From contig JAKOVH010000030.1 in assembly GCA_029782145.1 (NCBI GenBank), positions 372,001 to 436,000 on the forward strand: 64,000 nt of DNA, in the 5' to 3' direction. Of this stretch, positions 49,762 through 57,604 are shown in pieces. The first letter of the stretch is position 1. Every line of letters starts with the position of its first letter. Under the pieces are notes generated by a model, which worked only from the letters and a program-made list of their open reading frames with translations, had not been told where the DNA came from and made no database searches. The translations under genes were made by a program, and so were the position numbers. Source of the DNA: Actinomycetes bacterium. GTDB lineage: Bacteria; Actinomycetota; Acidimicrobiia; Acidimicrobiales; Acidimicrobilacustridaceae.

Positions 49762-49843
49762 TGTCGCGGTCGCCGACGACCCAACGGGTGACGGCCAGCT
49801 CGACGAGAGCGATGGCTCCGGGAGGGCTGTCGTACCCCCTGAG

Positions 49844-49849
49844 TAGCGT
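49844..49849 (+). promoter_or_regulatory. -10 box of the second DUF222/HNH gene, leaderless arrangement
   Basis: TAGCGT, 7 nt before the ATG at 49857. This spacing is the same as for the first DUF222 gene at 8781. Confidence 0.5.
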
Positions 49850-49856
49850 CTTGCGC

Positions 49857-51248
49857 ATGGGTTCGGGGGTGTTGGATCGGGCAGCGAGCGGTGGCTTCGT
49901 GGCTGCCGCGGTGCGTCCGGTGGCGGAGGTGGCGGCTGAGCTCAGGTCGTTGGTGTACGAGCTCGATCCGCTGCAGGTCTCGGCGCGGGATTGCATGGAG
50001 CTGGTCGAGCTGTTCTCCACCATGGAGCACCTGGCCTCAGCGCAGGTGGCGTTGTGCGCTCGGCGGGTGGCCGAGGCCGAGCGGTTGTGGCGTTCCAAGG
50101 GGCATCGCAGCGCCGCTCACTGGCTCGCGATGGTGACGGGGATGACGGTGGGCCAGGCCGTGGCGTTGCTGCGGACGGCTGAAGCGGTGCAGGAGGCGCC
50201 GCAGACCACCGAGTCGCTGCTGGCCGGGGAGCTGTCCACGCAACAGGCGCTGCCGGCCGCGGAGGCGGAGAGGGTCGATGCCGATGCGGCGGGCGAGCTG
50301 ATCGAGAAGGCCAAGGGCGGCTCGGCGTCGGTGAAGGACCTGCAGGAGGAGTCGACGCGCATCGTGGCGGCGGCGTCGGGTGAGTCCGACGCGCAGAAGG
50401 CCGAGCGCATCCGCCGCAAGCGGTCGTTGCGGGTTGGCACCAACCCCGATGGTTCGGGGTGGGGTCGCTGGTCCAGCCTGCCGGCAGCCGATCAGGCTCG
50501 ACTGGTGGCGTTGCTCGAGCAGCAGGCCAGCCAGATCTTCACCGAGGCCAGGGCCGCCGGAGTGCGGGAGTCCCACGACGCCTACATGGCTGACGCTCTG
50601 ACCGCCCTCGCCGAGCACGCCGCCGGGTCGCCTGGCGCCGCACGAGATGATGGCCCTGCCGAGGAAGGGGACGGCGGTGCGGTCGAGGCCACCCGGTGGG
50701 ACTTCACCAAGGTGATCGTGCGGGTCGACGCCAGCGCTCTCGAACGCGGCGAGCTGGCACGCGGTGAGGTGTGCGAGATCGCCGGGCACGGCCCCGTGCC
50801 GGTGGCCACGGTGCGGGAGATGATCGCCGGCGGAGCGTTCGTCGCGGCGCTGTCCACGAAAGGCACCGAGATCGACAGAGTCGTGCACCTCGGCCGCCGG
50901 CCCACCGCCCTGCAGAAGACGGTGCTGGACTGGCATGCCGGCGGCACCTGTTCGATCGAGGGCTGTAACGGCACGGCCAGGTTGGAGATCGACCACGTGG
51001 CCGACTGGGCCGACACGCACGTCACCCGCATCCAGGATCTCGCTCCGCTGTGCGGGCACCACCACGACCTCAAGACCCACAAAGGCTTCCGGCTCGGCCC
51101 CCGCCTGCCCAACGGCCGACGCCGGCTCATCCCGCCCGAGGGGGTCGACCCGCCCGGGGTCATCGACTGGCGGCCGGCCGCCGACGCGGCGATCCACTGC
51201 GACCGATGGGACGCCGCCGCACAGGGCGACCTCTTCGACACCGGTTAG
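49857..51248 (+). CDS. DUF222 and HNH endonuclease domain protein
   Basis: A 463-residue member of the same family as the protein at 8781. DUF222 occupies the first 300 residues (LVELFSTMEHLASAQVALCA, AAHWLAMVTGMTVGQAVALL) and the HNH motif reads CSIEGCNGTARLEIDHVADW, ending LCGHHHDLKTH. The two proteins are clearly different in sequence, so they are not a recent duplication. The ATG at 49857 fits the -10 box; an earlier in-frame start at 49788 would lie upstream of it. Confidence 0.86.
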   Translation: MGSGVLDRAASGGFVAAAVRPVAEVAAELRSLVYELDPLQVSARDCMELVELFSTMEHLASAQVALCARRVAEAERLWRSKGHRSAAHWLAMVTGMTVGQAVALLRTAEAVQEAPQTTESLLAGELSTQQALPAAEAERVDADAAGELIEKAKGGSASVKDLQEESTRIVAAASGESDAQKAERIRRKRSLRVGTNPDGSGWGRWSSLPAADQARLVALLEQQASQIFTEARAAGVRESHDAYMADALTALAEHAAGSPGAARDDGPAEEGDGGAVEATRWDFTKVIVRVDASALERGELARGEVCEIAGHGPVPVATVREMIAGGAFVAALSTKGTEIDRVVHLGRRPTALQKTVLDWHAGGTCSIEGCNGTARLEIDHVADWADTHVTRIQDLAPLCGHHHDLKTHKGFRLGPRLPNGRRRLIPPEGVDPPGVIDWRPAADAAIHCDRWDAAAQGDLFDTG

Positions 51249-51376: not shown

Positions 51377-52375
51377 TTACAGCTCGGGCCAGGCCCGCTT
51401 GGGGCGGCGCCGACCGGGCTTGCGGTCGCCGAGCGCCCAGGTGCGGCGCCACGCACCGGCACCCGGGCCCTGCAACGACGGCGTCTGCCCGGCGGCAGCA
51501 CGCCGGCGCGCCTGCCACCAGTCGGAGGCCGCCTCGTCGGCCAGCTCGGCCACCGCCGTCTCGATGCGGGCGGCGAGCCGGCGGGAGTCCTCGCCGTCCT
51601 CGGCCACGACGGGCCGGCCGAAGGTCACGGTGGTGGGTGTGCGGCGGGGCACGTTCTTGCCCTTGCGGAGGATCCGGCCCGTGCCCTCCACGTGCACCGG
51701 CACCACCGGCACCCCGCAGCGCGAGGAGAGGTAGGCGGCACCACCCCGGAAGGCCTGGCCCCAGCCGTCGGGGGACCGGCCGCCCTCGGGGAAGATGAGC
51801 ATGCTCCAGCCGTCGGCGAGCAGCTCGGCGGCCTGGTCGGCCGACGTCCGCGTGACCTTCGTGCGCTCGATGGGGATGGCGCCGATCACCAGCGCGGACA
51901 GCGTGGACGTGACCCGGTTGCCGAAGAAGTAGTCGGCGGCCGCACCGATGAACAGGTGGTGGCGCCACGGCTCGGGGATGACCGACAGCAGCAGCGGCGT
52001 GTCGACGTGGCTGTGGTGGTTGGCGGCGAACACGACCGGCCCGTCGATGTCGTCGAGTCGGTCGAGGCCCTTCACCGTCGGCGTGGCCAGCAGGTCCATG
52101 GCCGGGCGGACCACGCCTTCCACCAGCAGCACCCGGGCGGCACGGGCGGGGTAGGAGCGGGCCCACTCCGTGTCGTAGTTGGCGCCGACCTTGCTCTCCA
52201 CCGGCAGCGGCTCGACGCCGTCAGGGACGGTGGGCGGGCGGAGGGTCGCGGGCGTCAGCTTGCGGCCGAGGGCCATGGCGCCGGCCTTCCCGGCGGAGGC
52301 GACGACGGCCTTGTTCACGGGCAGGCGCTTGACCAGCTCGGTGCCCTGCTTGGAGGTGACGGGGATGCGGCTCAT
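51377..52375 (-). CDS. 1-acyl-sn-glycerol-3-phosphate acyltransferase (PlsC family)
   Basis: A 332-residue PlsC-family acyltransferase. The catalytic NHHSHVDTPLL (NHx4D) lies near residue 120, and IFPEGGRSPDGWGQ binds the phosphate of the acceptor. It transfers an acyl chain from acyl-CoA to lysophosphatidate or a similar alcohol at the membrane face. It is the last gene of a four-gene run that begins with an acyl reductase, so wax or unusual ether/ester lipids are possible end products. A 60-residue basic C-terminal tail is extra. Confidence 0.87.
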   Translation of the reverse strand: MSRIPVTSKQGTELVKRLPVNKAVVASAGKAGAMALGRKLTPATLRPPTVPDGVEPLPVESKVGANYDTEWARSYPARAARVLLVEGVVRPAMDLLATPTVKGLDRLDDIDGPVVFAANHHSHVDTPLLLSVIPEPWRHHLFIGAAADYFFGNRVTSTLSALVIGAIPIERTKVTRTSADQAAELLADGWSMLIFPEGGRSPDGWGQAFRGGAAYLSSRCGVPVVPVHVEGTGRILRKGKNVPRRTPTTVTFGRPVVAEDGEDSRRLAARIETAVAELADEAASDWWQARRRAAAGQTPSLQGPGAGAWRRTWALGDRKPGRRRPKRAWPEL

Positions 52376-52405
52376 CGTTGTCGCTCGCTCGCTCGCTCGG
52401 CCCGG

Positions 52406-54001
52406 TCAGGAGACGTCGGCCATGAGGATCGGCGGGTTGTGCAGGTGGGTGATGGTGGCGTCGCGGCCCACCACGTCGCTCGCCATCTCCAGCGCGTCCT
52501 GCAGGGTGGAGGCCGGCTTGAAGCCCAGCCGCCGCACCGCCCGCGTGTCGCCGCCGACGATGATGACCTGGCCCAGGTGCTGCAGGGCGTGGGCGCACCA
52601 GTACCACATGTAGAACGGGTGCACGCCGTGGTAGGCGTAGCTGGTGCGGTAGAGGTGCCGGTACCACTCGTCCTCGGCGAAGCCCTTCTCGAACTCGGCC
52701 TCGATGCGGATCGGGTCGGTGGTCTCGGCCAGCACCTGCTCGAAGAAGTCGATGTAGCTCGGGTGGTGGACCGGGTGGAACTCCCACGGGGTGGGGTGGC
52801 TCATGATGAGCACGCCGCCGTCGCGCACCGGCGGCTTGCCCCGGTAGAGGTTGAAGAAGTACCCGAGCCCGAGGCAGGCCACGAGGATCGGGTTGAGGAT
52901 CGAGTTCACGTTGTAGGGGCTGATGTAGGGCAGCCCCATGGTGAGGATGTCGGTCTGCCCCTCGACCGGCACCAGGTGCTGGGCGTAGACGTTGGCCGTC
53001 GTCACCTCGTGCACCGCCTCGACCTCGCCGGCCTGCACCGAGGTCATGGCGTGGGGGGCCTGCCAGCTCTGGAAGATCGACCGGCGGGTGCGCTGGGGCA
53101 GCCGGTCGAGCCCGGCCTTCATGGCGGTGAAGGAGATGCGGTCCTTCACGTTCCACTCCCACTCGCGCTTCTGCAGCACGCTCATGGGCCCCTCGGTGCC
53201 GAACACGTCGTTGTTCATGGTCGTCTCGATCTGGAAGACCTTGACGCCCGAGTCGCGCAGCACCTTGCCCATCCGCCAGTTGGCCGAGTGCAGCTCGGAG
53301 TGGTGCCGGTCCATGAAGCTCTTCGAGTGCCGCATGGTGTGGACGTTGTGGTGGTGGCGCAGCGAGCGATACGAGGCCAGGCCGGTCGCGGTGGACTTCC
53401 ACCCGCCGTCCATCGACACGAGGTTGATGTTGACGTAGACGATGAGGTCGCTCTCGGCGGCCCGCTTGTTGATCTCGACCTCCTCGCCCTTCTCGGTGGT
53501 GCCGATGAAGAGGAGGTTGTCGGGGTCCTCGGCGTCGTGGTTGACGAGCAGGCCGTGGGGGGCGAAGGCGTCGTAGACCCGGTCGCCGACGGCGTGGCGC
53601 AGCTCGGCTTCGGTCATGCGCCGGTGGAGGGCCAGGGCGGCGACGAGCTGCACGTCGTCGACGCCGGCGGCCGCGGCCAGGTCGAGCACCGCCTCGATGA
53701 CCCGCTGGCGGATGTCGGGCCGCTTCATCGGGGGCAGCGGCAGCGAGATGTCGTCGAAGGCGATGGTGAGCTTCATGCCCGGCTTCAGCAGCGCGGCCAG
53801 GGGCTCGGAGTCGCCGATGGGGTTGGCCAGCGCGTCGCGGATCGCCTGGTCGGGGTTCTTGAGCGCCTCCAGTGGCTCGGCCGGGTAGATCACCCGGCTC
53901 CGGCCGGCGGGGAGGCGCTCGAGGCGGAAGCCCTCACCGTGGTGGAAGAGGATCGGCGGCGTCGAGCGGTCGACGTCGAGCACGAAGCCTGGTCTAGGCA
54001 C
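52406..54001 (-). CDS. LarA-like protein (nickel-pincer lactate racemase superfamily)
   Basis: A 531-residue protein. The N-terminal domain shows the DUF2088/LarA pattern: FDDISLPLPPMKRPDIR, ALALHRRMTEAELRHAVG and LLVNHDAEDPDNLLFIGTT. Compared with Lactobacillus LarA, H126, K202 (GGWK) and H218 keep the exact spacing of His108, Lys184 (which holds the nickel pincer) and His200 (a nickel ligand); the second catalytic base, His174, has no His counterpart. The C-terminal 230 residues do not resemble classical LarA. The GTG at 54001 overlaps the upstream dehydrogenase gene by 8 bp. No larB, larC or larE is in the window. Confidence 0.76.
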   Translation of the reverse strand: MPRPGFVLDVDRSTPPILFHHGEGFRLERLPAGRSRVIYPAEPLEALKNPDQAIRDALANPIGDSEPLAALLKPGMKLTIAFDDISLPLPPMKRPDIRQRVIEAVLDLAAAAGVDDVQLVAALALHRRMTEAELRHAVGDRVYDAFAPHGLLVNHDAEDPDNLLFIGTTEKGEEVEINKRAAESDLIVYVNINLVSMDGGWKSTATGLASYRSLRHHHNVHTMRHSKSFMDRHHSELHSANWRMGKVLRDSGVKVFQIETTMNNDVFGTEGPMSVLQKREWEWNVKDRISFTAMKAGLDRLPQRTRRSIFQSWQAPHAMTSVQAGEVEAVHEVTTANVYAQHLVPVEGQTDILTMGLPYISPYNVNSILNPILVACLGLGYFFNLYRGKPPVRDGGVLIMSHPTPWEFHPVHHPSYIDFFEQVLAETTDPIRIEAEFEKGFAEDEWYRHLYRTSYAYHGVHPFYMWYWCAHALQHLGQVIIVGGDTRAVRRLGFKPASTLQDALEMASDVVGRDATITHLHNPPILMADVS

Positions 54002-55211
54002 GGTTCCGTTCCTTCTCGTTGCGGAGGTCGAAGGCGATGCGCACCGCACCCCGGGCGCCGGCGTGGGCGGCGTGGGCGATGGCGTCCTCGTAGCGGGCGA
54101 GGGGGTAGGTGGCGCTGACCAGGCGACCGAGGTCGGCGGCGGCCACCAGCTCGAACGCGAGGTCGAAGGTCCGGCGCCGGTCGCCGTTGGGCAGCGTCTC
54201 GGTGCCGTAGGCGTAGGCGCCGGCGAGGGCGATCTCGCGCTGCCACAGCCCGGTGAGGTCGACGTGCACGTGGCCGGGCATGCCCACCATGGTGATGCGG
54301 CCCCTGGGGCGGACCACGGCGAGCGACTGGGCGAGCGACGCCTCGCTGCCGACGCAGTCGACGACGTGGTCGGCGCCGCCGGTGAGTCGCACGATGTCGC
54401 CGTCGCCCAGGGCCATGGAGCCGGTGGTCCGGCGCACGGCGCGGGCCACCTCGCCGGGCTCGACCACCGTGTCGGCGCCGAGCTGGCGGGCCAACGTGCG
54501 CTGGTGGGGGTGCTTGGCCACGGCGAGGATCGTGCAGTCGCGCCCGAAGCGGCGCAGGGCGGCGATGGTGAGCAGGCCGAGAGCGCCCGAGCCGAGCACC
54601 ACCACCAGCTCGCCGGGCTGGACGTCGGCGGCGAGCGCCCCGTGCACCGCGCAGGCGGTGGGCTCGACCATCACCGCCGCCTCGTCGGTCCAGTCGGCCG
54701 GCACGGGGTGGAGCTGCGACGTGTGGGCGACCATGCGGGTCGACCAGCCGCCGCCGGTGTCGCAGCAGAAGCCGCTCTGCAGGCCGGGCTCGATGCGGCC
54801 GAAGGCGATGAGCTCGCAGTTGCCGAGGTCGCCCCGGCCGCAGGCGGCGCACACCGGGTCGATGCCGCGGGTGGCGCAGCCGAGGACCGGCTCGACGACG
54901 ATGCGGCCCGCCGGCACGTCGCCCGCCGCAACGGGCAGGTCGGCCACCACCTCGTGGCCGGGCACGAACGGGAACGAGACGATCGGCTCGAAGTAGCGGG
55001 AGCTGTGACCGTCGATGGTGGACAGGTCCGAGCCGCAGATGCCCGAGAGCCGGGGGAGGACCTCGACCCAGCCGGGGCCGGGCAGCTCGGGCGGGTCGAT
55101 CGACCGCAGCCGCAGTGGGCCGACCTTGGCGCCGGCGCCGGCGGCCAGCCGGCCGGCGACGGTGGCCGCCGCGAAGCGGGGCACGTTGCGCTCGAAGCGG
55201 AGGGCCTTCAC
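53994..55211 (-). CDS. Zinc-dependent alcohol dehydrogenase (MDR family)
   Basis: A 405-residue medium-chain dehydrogenase. Catalytic-zinc residues lie in LSGICGSDL and VPGHEVV, and a variant structural zinc site in CAACGRGDLGNC. VVLGSGALGLLTIAAL binds the nicotinamide cofactor. It would interconvert an alcohol and an aldehyde or ketone. It overlaps both neighbouring genes (4 bp and 8 bp), so it belongs firmly to this operon and may act on the product of the acyl reductase. Confidence 0.88.
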   Translation of the reverse strand: MKALRFERNVPRFAAATVAGRLAAGAGAKVGPLRLRSIDPPELPGPGWVEVLPRLSGICGSDLSTIDGHSSRYFEPIVSFPFVPGHEVVADLPVAAGDVPAGRIVVEPVLGCATRGIDPVCAACGRGDLGNCELIAFGRIEPGLQSGFCCDTGGGWSTRMVAHTSQLHPVPADWTDEAAVMVEPTACAVHGALAADVQPGELVVVLGSGALGLLTIAALRRFGRDCTILAVAKHPHQRTLARQLGADTVVEPGEVARAVRRTTGSMALGDGDIVRLTGGADHVVDCVGSEASLAQSLAVVRPRGRITMVGMPGHVHVDLTGLWQREIALAGAYAYGTETLPNGDRRRTFDLAFELVAAADLGRLVSATYPLARYEDAIAHAAHAGARGAVRIAFDLRNEKERNRA

Positions 55212-57565
55212 GCCACGCCGTCCGGGACGAGGGGGTTGGCCAGGCCGCCGGAGCGGGTGCGGCGGGGCCCGATGGGCACGAGGGTGCGGGGGGCGCCCGG
55301 CGCCTTGGAGAAGTGCTCGACCAGCCAGCCCCGCTTGCGGGCCAGGGCGGCGAGGCGGGTCTCGGGGTTGACCGCCACCGGGAACCCGACCGCCTCGAGC
55401 ATCGGCAGATCGGAGGTGGAGTCGGCGTAGGCGACGGTCTCCCGCAGGTCGAGGCCGTGGGCCGCGGCGTAGTCCATGAGGGCCTGGGCCCGGCTCTCAC
55501 CGGTGGGCGGCACGTCGGTGAGCTGCCCGTCGTAGGCGCCCCGGGTGACGCCCATCTCGGCGGCGACGATGTCGTCGAAGAGCGGCTCGAGCGGCTTCAC
55601 CACGAAGTCCAGGGCGCCGGTGATGAGCACGGTGCGGTGGCCGGCTCGGCGGTGCTCGCGCACGCGGCGGATGGCGGCCGGGAACGACTTGGCGATGATG
55701 AGCCGGCTGAACATCTCGGCGGAGTCCTCGGCGATCTGCTCGACCGGGGCGCCGTCGTAGCGGCGGTAGAAGAGGCGCAGGAAGTCGCTGCGGTCCTTGC
55801 GGTCGAGGGCGAGCAGCGACGGCCCCTCGGCCAGGGTCTGCAGCACGAACCGCAGGCGCTCGTCGGGCGGCAGCCGACGGGTGGCCAGGAAGGCGTAGCT
55901 GGCCACCACGTTGGAGGCGATGAGGGTGTTCTCGAGGTCGAAGGCGGCGAGCTGGCGCTCGGGGGCGAGGACCTGCTTCCGCAGCCGCTCCTCACGGGTG
56001 GGGCCGGTGCGGCCCCCCGGGGTGGTGCGCACGCGGGCCTGCTGGACGACCGACGGGAGGAACACGTCGGTGGTGAAGCTGTCCCAGTCGATGACGCGCG
56101 GGTCGAAGCAGAAGTCGCGCTGGTCGTCGGGGGTCTGCGCGTCCCACAGGGCGAGCAGCCGGTCGAGGCCGTACACCGCCTCGCACTCGGCGTAGGCGCC
56201 GTAGAGCTCGACGTAGCCGAGGGCCTGCTCGGCCTCCTCCCGCTTGGACTCGAGCGACGCGCTCCACTCGGCCTGCTTGCCTCGCAGCGGCAGCTGGGCG
56301 AGCACGCCCTCGACCCGGGTGAGGGTCTTCTGCGCCCGCTGGAGCTGGCCCTGCACCCGGCCCCGGCCGGGGAAGGACCACTTGCGCACCACGATGGGCT
56401 GGCCCTTGGCGTCGTAGAGCGGGTGCTCGAGGAACCAGTCGCTCACCAGGTCGACGAGGCGCTTGTAGCGCAACGGGTTCTGCGACCCCGAGGCCACCTG
56501 CACGACCTCGATGTCGGGCTCGGGGCCCTTGGCCGCCACGGCGATGATGGCCGCGCTCACCAGGTCGACGGGGATGACGTCGACGATGCCCTCGGGCACG
56601 CCGGGGAACTCCTTCAGCAGGCCCCGGGCGAAGCTGATGATGACCGGGTCGGCCATGCGGAAGCCGCGGATCCAGCCCGGTCGGGGCTCGGCCAGCGCCG
56701 TCTCGATGATCGACGGGCGCACGATGCTCACCGGCACGGCGCCCTTGTTGTCGGCGAGGGCCCGCTCACCGAGGGCCTTGGTGTAGGCGTAGGCGTCGGG
56801 CCATCCGAGAGAGGCCGCCCGGGCCCGGCCGCCCTCGACCATGCGGTCGGCCACCCAGCGGCTGCGCAGCTGCTCGGTCTTCTCCGAGAGCAGCGGGCCG
56901 CCGGCGGCGCCGAGCTCCTTGCGGGCCTGGGCCCGGAAGTCGGCGAGCATCTCGGGGGTGCGGCTGCGGGCCTCGGCGTCGCGGCGGGCCCGGCGGGCGC
57001 CCTCGACCTCCTGGCGCCAGTCGACGTCGACGAAGAACGGGCTCTCGTCGACGAGCTGCTCGGGCGCCGACCCCCGACGGTTGCCGGCCACGTAGCAGGT
57101 CGACACGGCGACCAGGTGCGGGGTGACGCCCAAGTCGTCGAGGACGTGGGCGATGCGAGTCGGGCCCAGGAGGTTGACCTCGACGGCGGTGTCGAGCGGG
57201 GAGTCGAAGCTCACCGTGGCCGCCGAGTGGATGACGATGTCGCAGCTCGCCAGGGTGGCCCGGCCCTGCTCGTCGAGGCCGAGCCCGTCGCGGCCGACGT
57301 CGCCGGCCACCGCGGTGATGCGGCGGGCGGCCATCTCGGCGAACCCGTCCTTGCCCAGCTCGGTCCGCAACCGGTCGAAGGCGTCGTTCTTCAGGATCTC
57401 CCGGGCCACGCGCTGGTCGACGCTGGAGCGCTTGCCCGGGCGGATCAGCAGCACGATCTCGCAGTCCGGGACGCTGCGCAGCAACCGCTCGAGCAGGTTG
57501 GTGCCGAGGAAGCCGGTGGTGCCGGTGATGAAGATGCGCTTGCCGGCGAGCGCCTCACGGATCAC
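55208..57565 (-). CDS. Fatty acyl reductase (SDR) fused to a HAD-type phosphatase
   Basis: A 785-residue fusion. Residues 1-380 are an extended SDR like fatty acyl-CoA reductases: TGTTGFLGTNLLERLL (NADPH), HSAATVSFD, and Y259/K263 of the YxxxK pair. Residues 400-500 are a linker with helical segments. Residues 538-755 form a HAD-IB domain with the nucleophile loop FDLENTL (D543), where the second Asp of DxD is Glu545, then ITGALDFV and YADSTSDLPM. It would reduce acyl-CoA to aldehyde or alcohol while the HAD part removes a phosphate. The GTG at 57565 is 6 nt after TAGACA. First gene of the operon. Confidence 0.87.
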   Translation of the reverse strand: MIREALAGKRIFITGTTGFLGTNLLERLLRSVPDCEIVLLIRPGKRSSVDQRVAREILKNDAFDRLRTELGKDGFAEMAARRITAVAGDVGRDGLGLDEQGRATLASCDIVIHSAATVSFDSPLDTAVEVNLLGPTRIAHVLDDLGVTPHLVAVSTCYVAGNRRGSAPEQLVDESPFFVDVDWRQEVEGARRARRDAEARSRTPEMLADFRAQARKELGAAGGPLLSEKTEQLRSRWVADRMVEGGRARAASLGWPDAYAYTKALGERALADNKGAVPVSIVRPSIIETALAEPRPGWIRGFRMADPVIISFARGLLKEFPGVPEGIVDVIPVDLVSAAIIAVAAKGPEPDIEVVQVASGSQNPLRYKRLVDLVSDWFLEHPLYDAKGQPIVVRKWSFPGRGRVQGQLQRAQKTLTRVEGVLAQLPLRGKQAEWSASLESKREEAEQALGYVELYGAYAECEAVYGLDRLLALWDAQTPDDQRDFCFDPRVIDWDSFTTDVFLPSVVQQARVRTTPGGRTGPTREERLRKQVLAPERQLAAFDLENTLIASNVVASYAFLATRRLPPDERLRFVLQTLAEGPSLLALDRKDRSDFLRLFYRRYDGAPVEQIAEDSAEMFSRLIIAKSFPAAIRRVREHRRAGHRTVLITGALDFVVKPLEPLFDDIVAAEMGVTRGAYDGQLTDVPPTGESRAQALMDYAAAHGLDLRETVAYADSTSDLPMLEAVGFPVAVNPETRLAALARKRGWLVEHFSKAPGAPRTLVPIGPRRTRSGGLANPLVPDGVA

Positions 57566-57571
57566 GCCGAG

Positions 57572-57604
57572 TGTCTACCACTTGGTAAGTGAAGCGTCTA
57601 GCAT
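57572..57604. promoter_or_regulatory. Divergent leaderless promoters over a shared palindrome
   Basis: TACCA-CT-TGGTA (57576-57587) is an inverted repeat. It overlaps the -10 box TAGACA of the acyl reductase gene (57577-57572, minus) and the -35 place of the TetR gene, whose -10 box TAGCAT is at 57599-57604. Start codons lie 6 and 7 nt beyond the two -10 boxes. A repressor bound here would block both promoters. Confidence 0.6.

Follow-up and report, generated by a model that had tools for sequence, protein, structure and literature searches.

Our analysis revealed a conserved operon, apparently controlled by its own TetR-family regulator, that might encode a pathway for alkyl, most likely 1-O-alkyl (ether-linked), glycerolipids, a reading to which we give an even chance of being correct. 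The operon was found on contig JAKOVH010000030.1, of which a stretch of 64,000 nt (positions 372,001-436,000), hereafter called the window, was analysed. At window positions 51377-57565 four genes are all open on the minus strand and follow each other in the transcription order fatty acyl reductase (FAR) fused to a HAD domain, zinc alcohol dehydrogenase (ADH), LarA homologue (LarAH) and PlsC-type acyltransferase. The four genes are the following:

55208-57565, minus strand: fusion of a fatty acyl reductase (NAD_binding_4, 193.7 bits) and a HAD-IB phosphatase-like domain (103.2 bits), 785 aa, GTG start
53994-55211, minus strand: zinc medium-chain alcohol/polyol dehydrogenase, 405 aa, GTG start (ADH_zinc_N, 73 bits, and ADH_N), an optional member
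52406-54001, minus strand: LarA homologue of the LarAH14/15/16 family, 531 aa, GTG start (Lar_N, 134.8 bits; NF052592, 895.5 bits)
51377-52375, minus strand: PlsC-type acyltransferase, 332 aa, ATG start (PF01553, Acyltransferase, 66.6 bits)

Domain assignments are Pfam matches above the curated cut-offs, and they agree with an earlier note on this DNA, which had described an operon of acyl reductase-HAD, zinc dehydrogenase, LarA-like protein and PlsC at this place. FAR-HAD and ADH overlap by 4 bp (GTGA), ADH and LarAH overlap by 8 bp, and LarAH and PlsC are separated by a gap of 30 bp. In the reductase domain the TGxxGF motif and the catalytic YxxxK are invariant (105 and 111 orthologues, respectively), and the nearest solved structure is a fatty acyl-CoA reductase (E 1e-56). 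The HAD domain shows an invariant nucleophile Asp and an invariant DxxxD, with the second Asp of DxDxT being Glu in 103 of 120 orthologues, and its TIGR01490 score is barely above the cut-off. The zinc dehydrogenase, which is of the polyol type, keeps the Cys, His and Glu ligands of its catalytic zinc across orthologues. The HX4D and PEG-R-S motifs of PlsC are invariant or nearly so (112-113 orthologues), its nearest solved structure being a 1-acyl-glycerol-3-phosphate acyltransferase. In the pathway that we propose, the reductase domain would convert an acyl thioester to a fatty aldehyde or alcohol, and PlsC (PlsY in Rubrobacter) would transfer an acyl chain onto a glycerol-phosphate-type backbone. 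With the nickel-pincer nucleotide as its cofactor, the LarA homologue might move a hydride in one direction on an intermediate of the backbone or the chain that bears a hydroxy or oxo group, the HAD domain could remove phosphate, and the zinc dehydrogenase may contribute an auxiliary redox step in which it is replaceable by other enzymes. The ether product, the substrate of the LarA homologue, the direction of hydride transfer and the role of the HAD domain are what we infer here.

The gene order is conserved far beyond chance. The order FAR-ADH-LarAH-PlsC, for which the earlier note had suggested a search across Actinobacteria, is kept in 32 whole-genome loci from 15 actinobacterial families, and most of the 80 named loci of relatives, which belong to the Acidimicrobiia, show the order FAR-(ADH)-LarAH-PlsC. 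The LarA homologue belongs, as a full-length member, to NF052592 (NCBIfam, 'NPN-dependent hydroxyacid isomerase, LarAH14/15/16 family'; 895.5 bits against a cut-off of 740 bits), and a LarAH14-type gene was detected above cut-off in 72 genomes of an even sample of 296 Actinomycetota genomes. The reductase-HAD was found in 80 of these 296 genomes, including all 72 with LarAH14. LarAH14 in turn was present in 76 of the 80 reductase genomes, a figure in which contig-cut fragments were counted since some loci are cut by contig ends, and the earlier note's proviso that the LarA-like gene might be absent from the operon in most relatives is thus not borne out. For whole genes the pairing has a Fisher p of 2.6e-60, calculated, like all co-occurrence statistics given here, with no correction for shared ancestry. 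The pairing survives a loss of linkage, as in one genome (G065) both genes are present on separate contigs. More distant LarA homologues with 25-43% identity did not share this neighbourhood. Around a second LarA group (L079, L080, L081), about 42% identical, no lipid gene stood in the expected order. LarAH gave no plasmid match and the reductase-HAD gave a single one, to a Streptomyces plasmid (35% identity, 92% coverage). One of the named records is titled Bifidobacterium breve (CAMCTY010000010.1; L092), but is probably mislabelled or contaminated, because its LarAH gene is 90% identical to the acidimicrobial one described here.

As regards the members of the operon, the set of four proposed in the earlier note holds as a unit, to which the regulator and operator described below are added, with the exception of the zinc dehydrogenase as an essential member. 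Among the named loci (L092-L171) this gene is present and absent in approximately equal numbers of otherwise identical operons. The 40 loci without it, about half of the total, show clean junctions, with a distance of -4 to 116 bp between the reductase and LarA genes in 39 of the 40. These loci rule out the zinc dehydrogenase as an essential step, and we therefore consider reductase-HAD, LarAH14 and acyltransferase to be the core. A further variant occurs in a family (f24) in which PlsC was not found adjoining LarAH and PlsY adjoins the reductase instead. This family represents the Rubrobacteraceae, as two of its genomes have contigs that match plasmids of R. radiotolerans and R. indicoceani at 100% identity. 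The genome's best-scoring PlsY was located directly upstream of FAR in all six genomes checked, and the gene order in Rubrobacter is PlsY-FAR-ADH-LarAH. The exchange of PlsC for PlsY suggests that backbone acylation belongs to the pathway, because one glycerol-phosphate acyltransferase family replaces another.

The same exchange bears on the synthesis of fatty alcohols and wax esters, in which the reductase would make a fatty alcohol and the acyltransferase would esterify it to a storage or surface wax. Fatty acyl reductases are the usual source of wax alcohols, and Acidimicrobiia such as Microthrix are known to store lipid. However, the acyltransferase is a PlsC that is swapped in Rubrobacteraceae for PlsY and not for a wax synthase, and no wax ester synthase/diacylglycerol acyltransferase (WS/DGAT) gene was found in the operon, in a search that covered the operon and its neighbourhood and did not extend to the rest of the genomes. 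We consider wax synthesis unlikely, and the position of PlsY beside the reductase, in place of PlsC, points to alkyl-ether glycerolipids over wax. Of the products considered in the earlier note, which were wax or ether/plasmalogen-like lipids, the ether type is therefore the one that gains from Rubrobacter.

Other bacteria make the lipid backbone with GpsA, the glycerol-3-phosphate dehydrogenase. In four nearly complete Rubrobacteraceae genomes (G041, G011, G026, G195) no match to GpsA (PF07479) was detected, and the plasmids of R. radiotolerans and R. indicoceani carry genes for sn-glycerol-1-phosphate dehydrogenase. Over the whole sample GpsA went undetected in 30 of the 72 genomes with the cluster versus 29 of the 224 others. 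A role of the cluster as a replacement for GpsA was nevertheless rejected, as the genome of the window has GpsA and Acidimicrobiales free of the cluster also are without it, and we regard the pattern as a lineage effect.

Ether glycerolipids are favoured as the product because acyl reduction is tied to acylation of a glycerol-phosphate type in one gene set, because Rubrobacter, which bears the cluster, belongs to an order reported to be rich in mixed ether/ester lipids, and because the elb operon of myxobacteria combines the same FAR, HAD and acyltransferase functions. Mixed ether/ester lipids are reported to be dominant in Rubrobacterales (Sinninghe Damste et al. 2023, Syst. Appl. Microbiol. 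46:126404). The elb operon of Myxococcus xanthus (PMC9131029), which serves the synthesis of alkyl lipids, likewise joins a FAR domain with a phosphatase of the HAD type and a PlsC-like acyltransferase. It differs in that ElbD has additional acyl-CoA synthetase and carrier domains, in that ElbE is of the epimerase type, and in having neither a LarA homologue nor a zinc dehydrogenase. Synthetase and carrier domains of the ElbD type and an ElbE-type protein were not found among the four genes and did not recur in the neighbourhood census, so that assignment to the elb-type operons as a class was rejected.

The LarA homologue, an uncharacterised relative of lactate racemase (LarA), which is a rare nickel enzyme, sets this operon apart, and its residues give an indication of its potential reaction. 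Asp82, His125, Lys201 and His217 are invariant (117-118 orthologues) and correspond by profile alignment to LarA Asp72, His108 (the first catalytic base), Lys184 (cofactor attachment) and His200 (nickel ligand). The position of the second catalytic His (LarA His174) is occupied by Asn192, invariant in all 118 orthologues, and that of LarA Arg75, which binds the substrate carboxylate and the cofactor phosphate, by an invariant Ser85. Groups 14 and 15 are said to be without the second catalytic His and group 17 to have Asn (PMC12611868), and by profile alignment the LarAH14/15/16 members studied here have Asn at this position too. Since the second catalytic His is replaced by an invariant Asn, a two-base racemase or epimerase appears unlikely on sequence grounds, and the idea of the earlier note that the protein could epimerise a hydroxy-acyl intermediate is weakened. 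More plausible would be a hydride transfer that runs one way, or a relay of the hydride between two groups, which agrees with what is discussed in PMC7583248 and PMC12611868. By both sequence and fold, the nearest solved structures are those of single-histidine LarA enzymes from Blautia wexlerae and Streptococcus plurextorum (PDB 9q3j, 9q3k, 9q2u; PMC12611868). The AlphaFold model of the LarA homologue, which has a modest mean predicted local distance difference test score (pLDDT) of 69, matched 9q3k with a Z score of 30.8 and a root-mean-square deviation of 2.9 over 446 residues, and 9q3j with a Z score of 28.2. These enzymes likewise have Asn in place of the second catalytic His and keep the Lys and the nickel-binding His, but they are about 25% identical, are encoded among sugar-metabolism genes and have Lys where the LarAH14 family has Ser.

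The genome of the window also encodes the proteins for the cofactor, namely LarC (433.8 bits), a LarB-type AIRC gene located 172 bp before LarC, and LarE (289.3 bits). Within the Acidimicrobiia LarC was detected in 15 of 17 genomes with LarAH14 versus none of 10 without (p 8e-6), and over the 296-genome sample in 63 of the 72 LarAH14 genomes versus 130 of the 224 others. As LarAH14 is the sole LarA homologue detected in these Acidimicrobiia genomes, it is apparently for LarAH14 that they retain the cofactor genes. This pattern, the invariance of Lys201, His217, His125 and Asp82, and the cofactor binding of a related Asn-type LarA (PMC12611868) argue against a cofactor-free pseudo-enzyme or scaffold beside which only the reductase and the acyltransferase would be catalytic. 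Such a protein would be consistent with the Asn and Ser replacements, with the absence of detectable LarC from 9 of the 72 bearers, two of which (G263, G294) are assemblies of 96-98% completeness, and with the reported inactivity of group 14 on seven 2-hydroxy acids. All in all we regard a pseudo-enzyme as quite improbable. In the study that defined group 14 (Desguin et al. 2020, PMC7583248), the Frankia enzyme showed no activity on lactate, hydroxyisovalerate, hydroxyisocaproate, malate, hydroxyglutarate, phenyllactate or gluconate. The family LarAH14/15/16 was given no function or pathway there or in NF052592, whereas the present operon links it with a fatty acyl reductase and with a glycerolipid acyltransferase.

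The action of LarA enzymes on 2-hydroxy acids (PMC7583248) and the polyol type of the zinc dehydrogenase would also fit the synthesis of long-chain 1,2-diols, which replace glycerol, or of 2-hydroxy lipids. The reductase would then reduce a 2-hydroxyacyl thioester, the LarA homologue would act on a 2-hydroxy acid or rearrange a hydroxy aldehyde, and the diol would be acylated by the acyltransferase. However, no 2-hydroxylase or chain-extension gene recurred in the neighbourhood census, PlsC and PlsY are glycerol-phosphate enzymes, and the literature search gave no diol lipids reported for the bearers, which leaves this route with little probability. For alkyl-ether glycerolipids we tentatively suggest, as a possible but rather doubtful step, that LarAH14 performs a nickel-pincer hydride transfer on a lipid intermediate, which could be alkyl- or acyl-dihydroxyacetone phosphate (DHAP) or a fatty-aldehyde adduct, and that this step is needed to make the ether lipids. 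The alkyl-DHAP route of animals may be open in the genome of the window, since an AGPS-like flavin adenine dinucleotide (FAD) protein with an HHHGVG motif is encoded on the same contig (L187, L188; G000:C2, approximately 522000), next to a carbohydrate kinase of the FGGY type. Several points weigh against an ether-lipid operon. The AGPS-like gene lies elsewhere, outside the operon, the four genes are without the acyl-CoA synthetase and carrier domains of ElbD, and the bearers in which LarC went undetected have to be added. Furthermore, the ether product in the acidimicrobial bearers is a prediction from genes, and the origin of the Rubrobacter ether lipids from this very cluster is a presumed one.

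Two further features lie upstream of the reductase gene:

57576-57587, no strand: operator-like inverted repeat TACCA-CT-TGGTA (TACCACTTGGTA), 10 bp upstream of the reductase start codon
57612-58280, plus strand: divergent TetR-family regulator, approximately 222 aa, start inferred by reading the sequence (PF00440, 50.7 bits)

The divergent pair of TetR and reductase genes recurs in most Acidimicrobiia loci, and the repeat TACCA-NN-TGGTA sits between the two start codons. It occurs as a single copy in the window, with shuffled sequence yielding none. In 62 orthologous TetR-reductase intergenic regions the repeat was exact in 50 and present as a relaxed pattern in 57, the arms being kept and the two central bases varying, and 30 of 6200 random 130-bp windows of the same loci contained it. 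The inverted repeat is thus probably the operator of a dedicated TetR regulator, with TACCANNTGGTA as the predicted candidate DNA target of the TetR protein, and both the TetR gene and the operator would be part of the unit. No copy of the motif turned up close to larB-larC, to larE or to the AGPS-like locus, so that no wider regulon is seen. A promoter and terminator scan at the operon gave nothing useful. Beside the operon, at 49788-51248 on the plus strand, lies a gene for a 486-aa protein with no Pfam or NCBIfam match, which by eye resembles the 13E12-type repeat proteins and seems to carry an HNH-like motif in its C-terminal part.

The novelty claimed in the earlier note has to be narrowed, as the subfamily is already catalogued (PMC7583248, NCBIfam) and the published gene-context survey of PMC7583248 may already contain this neighbourhood, without a function. 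A literature search for this gene set or for a connection of a LarA enzyme with lipid synthesis returned nothing relevant. What was found is an operon of the aerobic ether-lipid type combined with an orphan nickel-pincer enzyme and is no new category. An ether-lipid operon has reportedly also been proposed for Rubrobacter in 2023, which could lessen the novelty further; that study is said to describe 1-O-alkyl glycerols in abundance and a putative alkyl-glycerol phosphate operon like that of other aerobic bacteria.

LarAH14/15/16 is a named nickel-pincer family without a known reaction, and its near-perfect pairing with one fatty acyl reductase connects the family with a lipid product, so that its function can be tested directly. 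Ether-lipid synthesis in aerobic Actinobacteria is unsettled, and a nickel-dependent lipid step would be unexpected. If the proposed step is correct, LarAH14 would be the first nickel-pincer enzyme of membrane-lipid synthesis, and the Actinobacteria would have a distinct route to ether lipids. In uncultured Acidimicrobiia, the operon with its dedicated regulator and operator might also be used as a genomic marker of such lipids.

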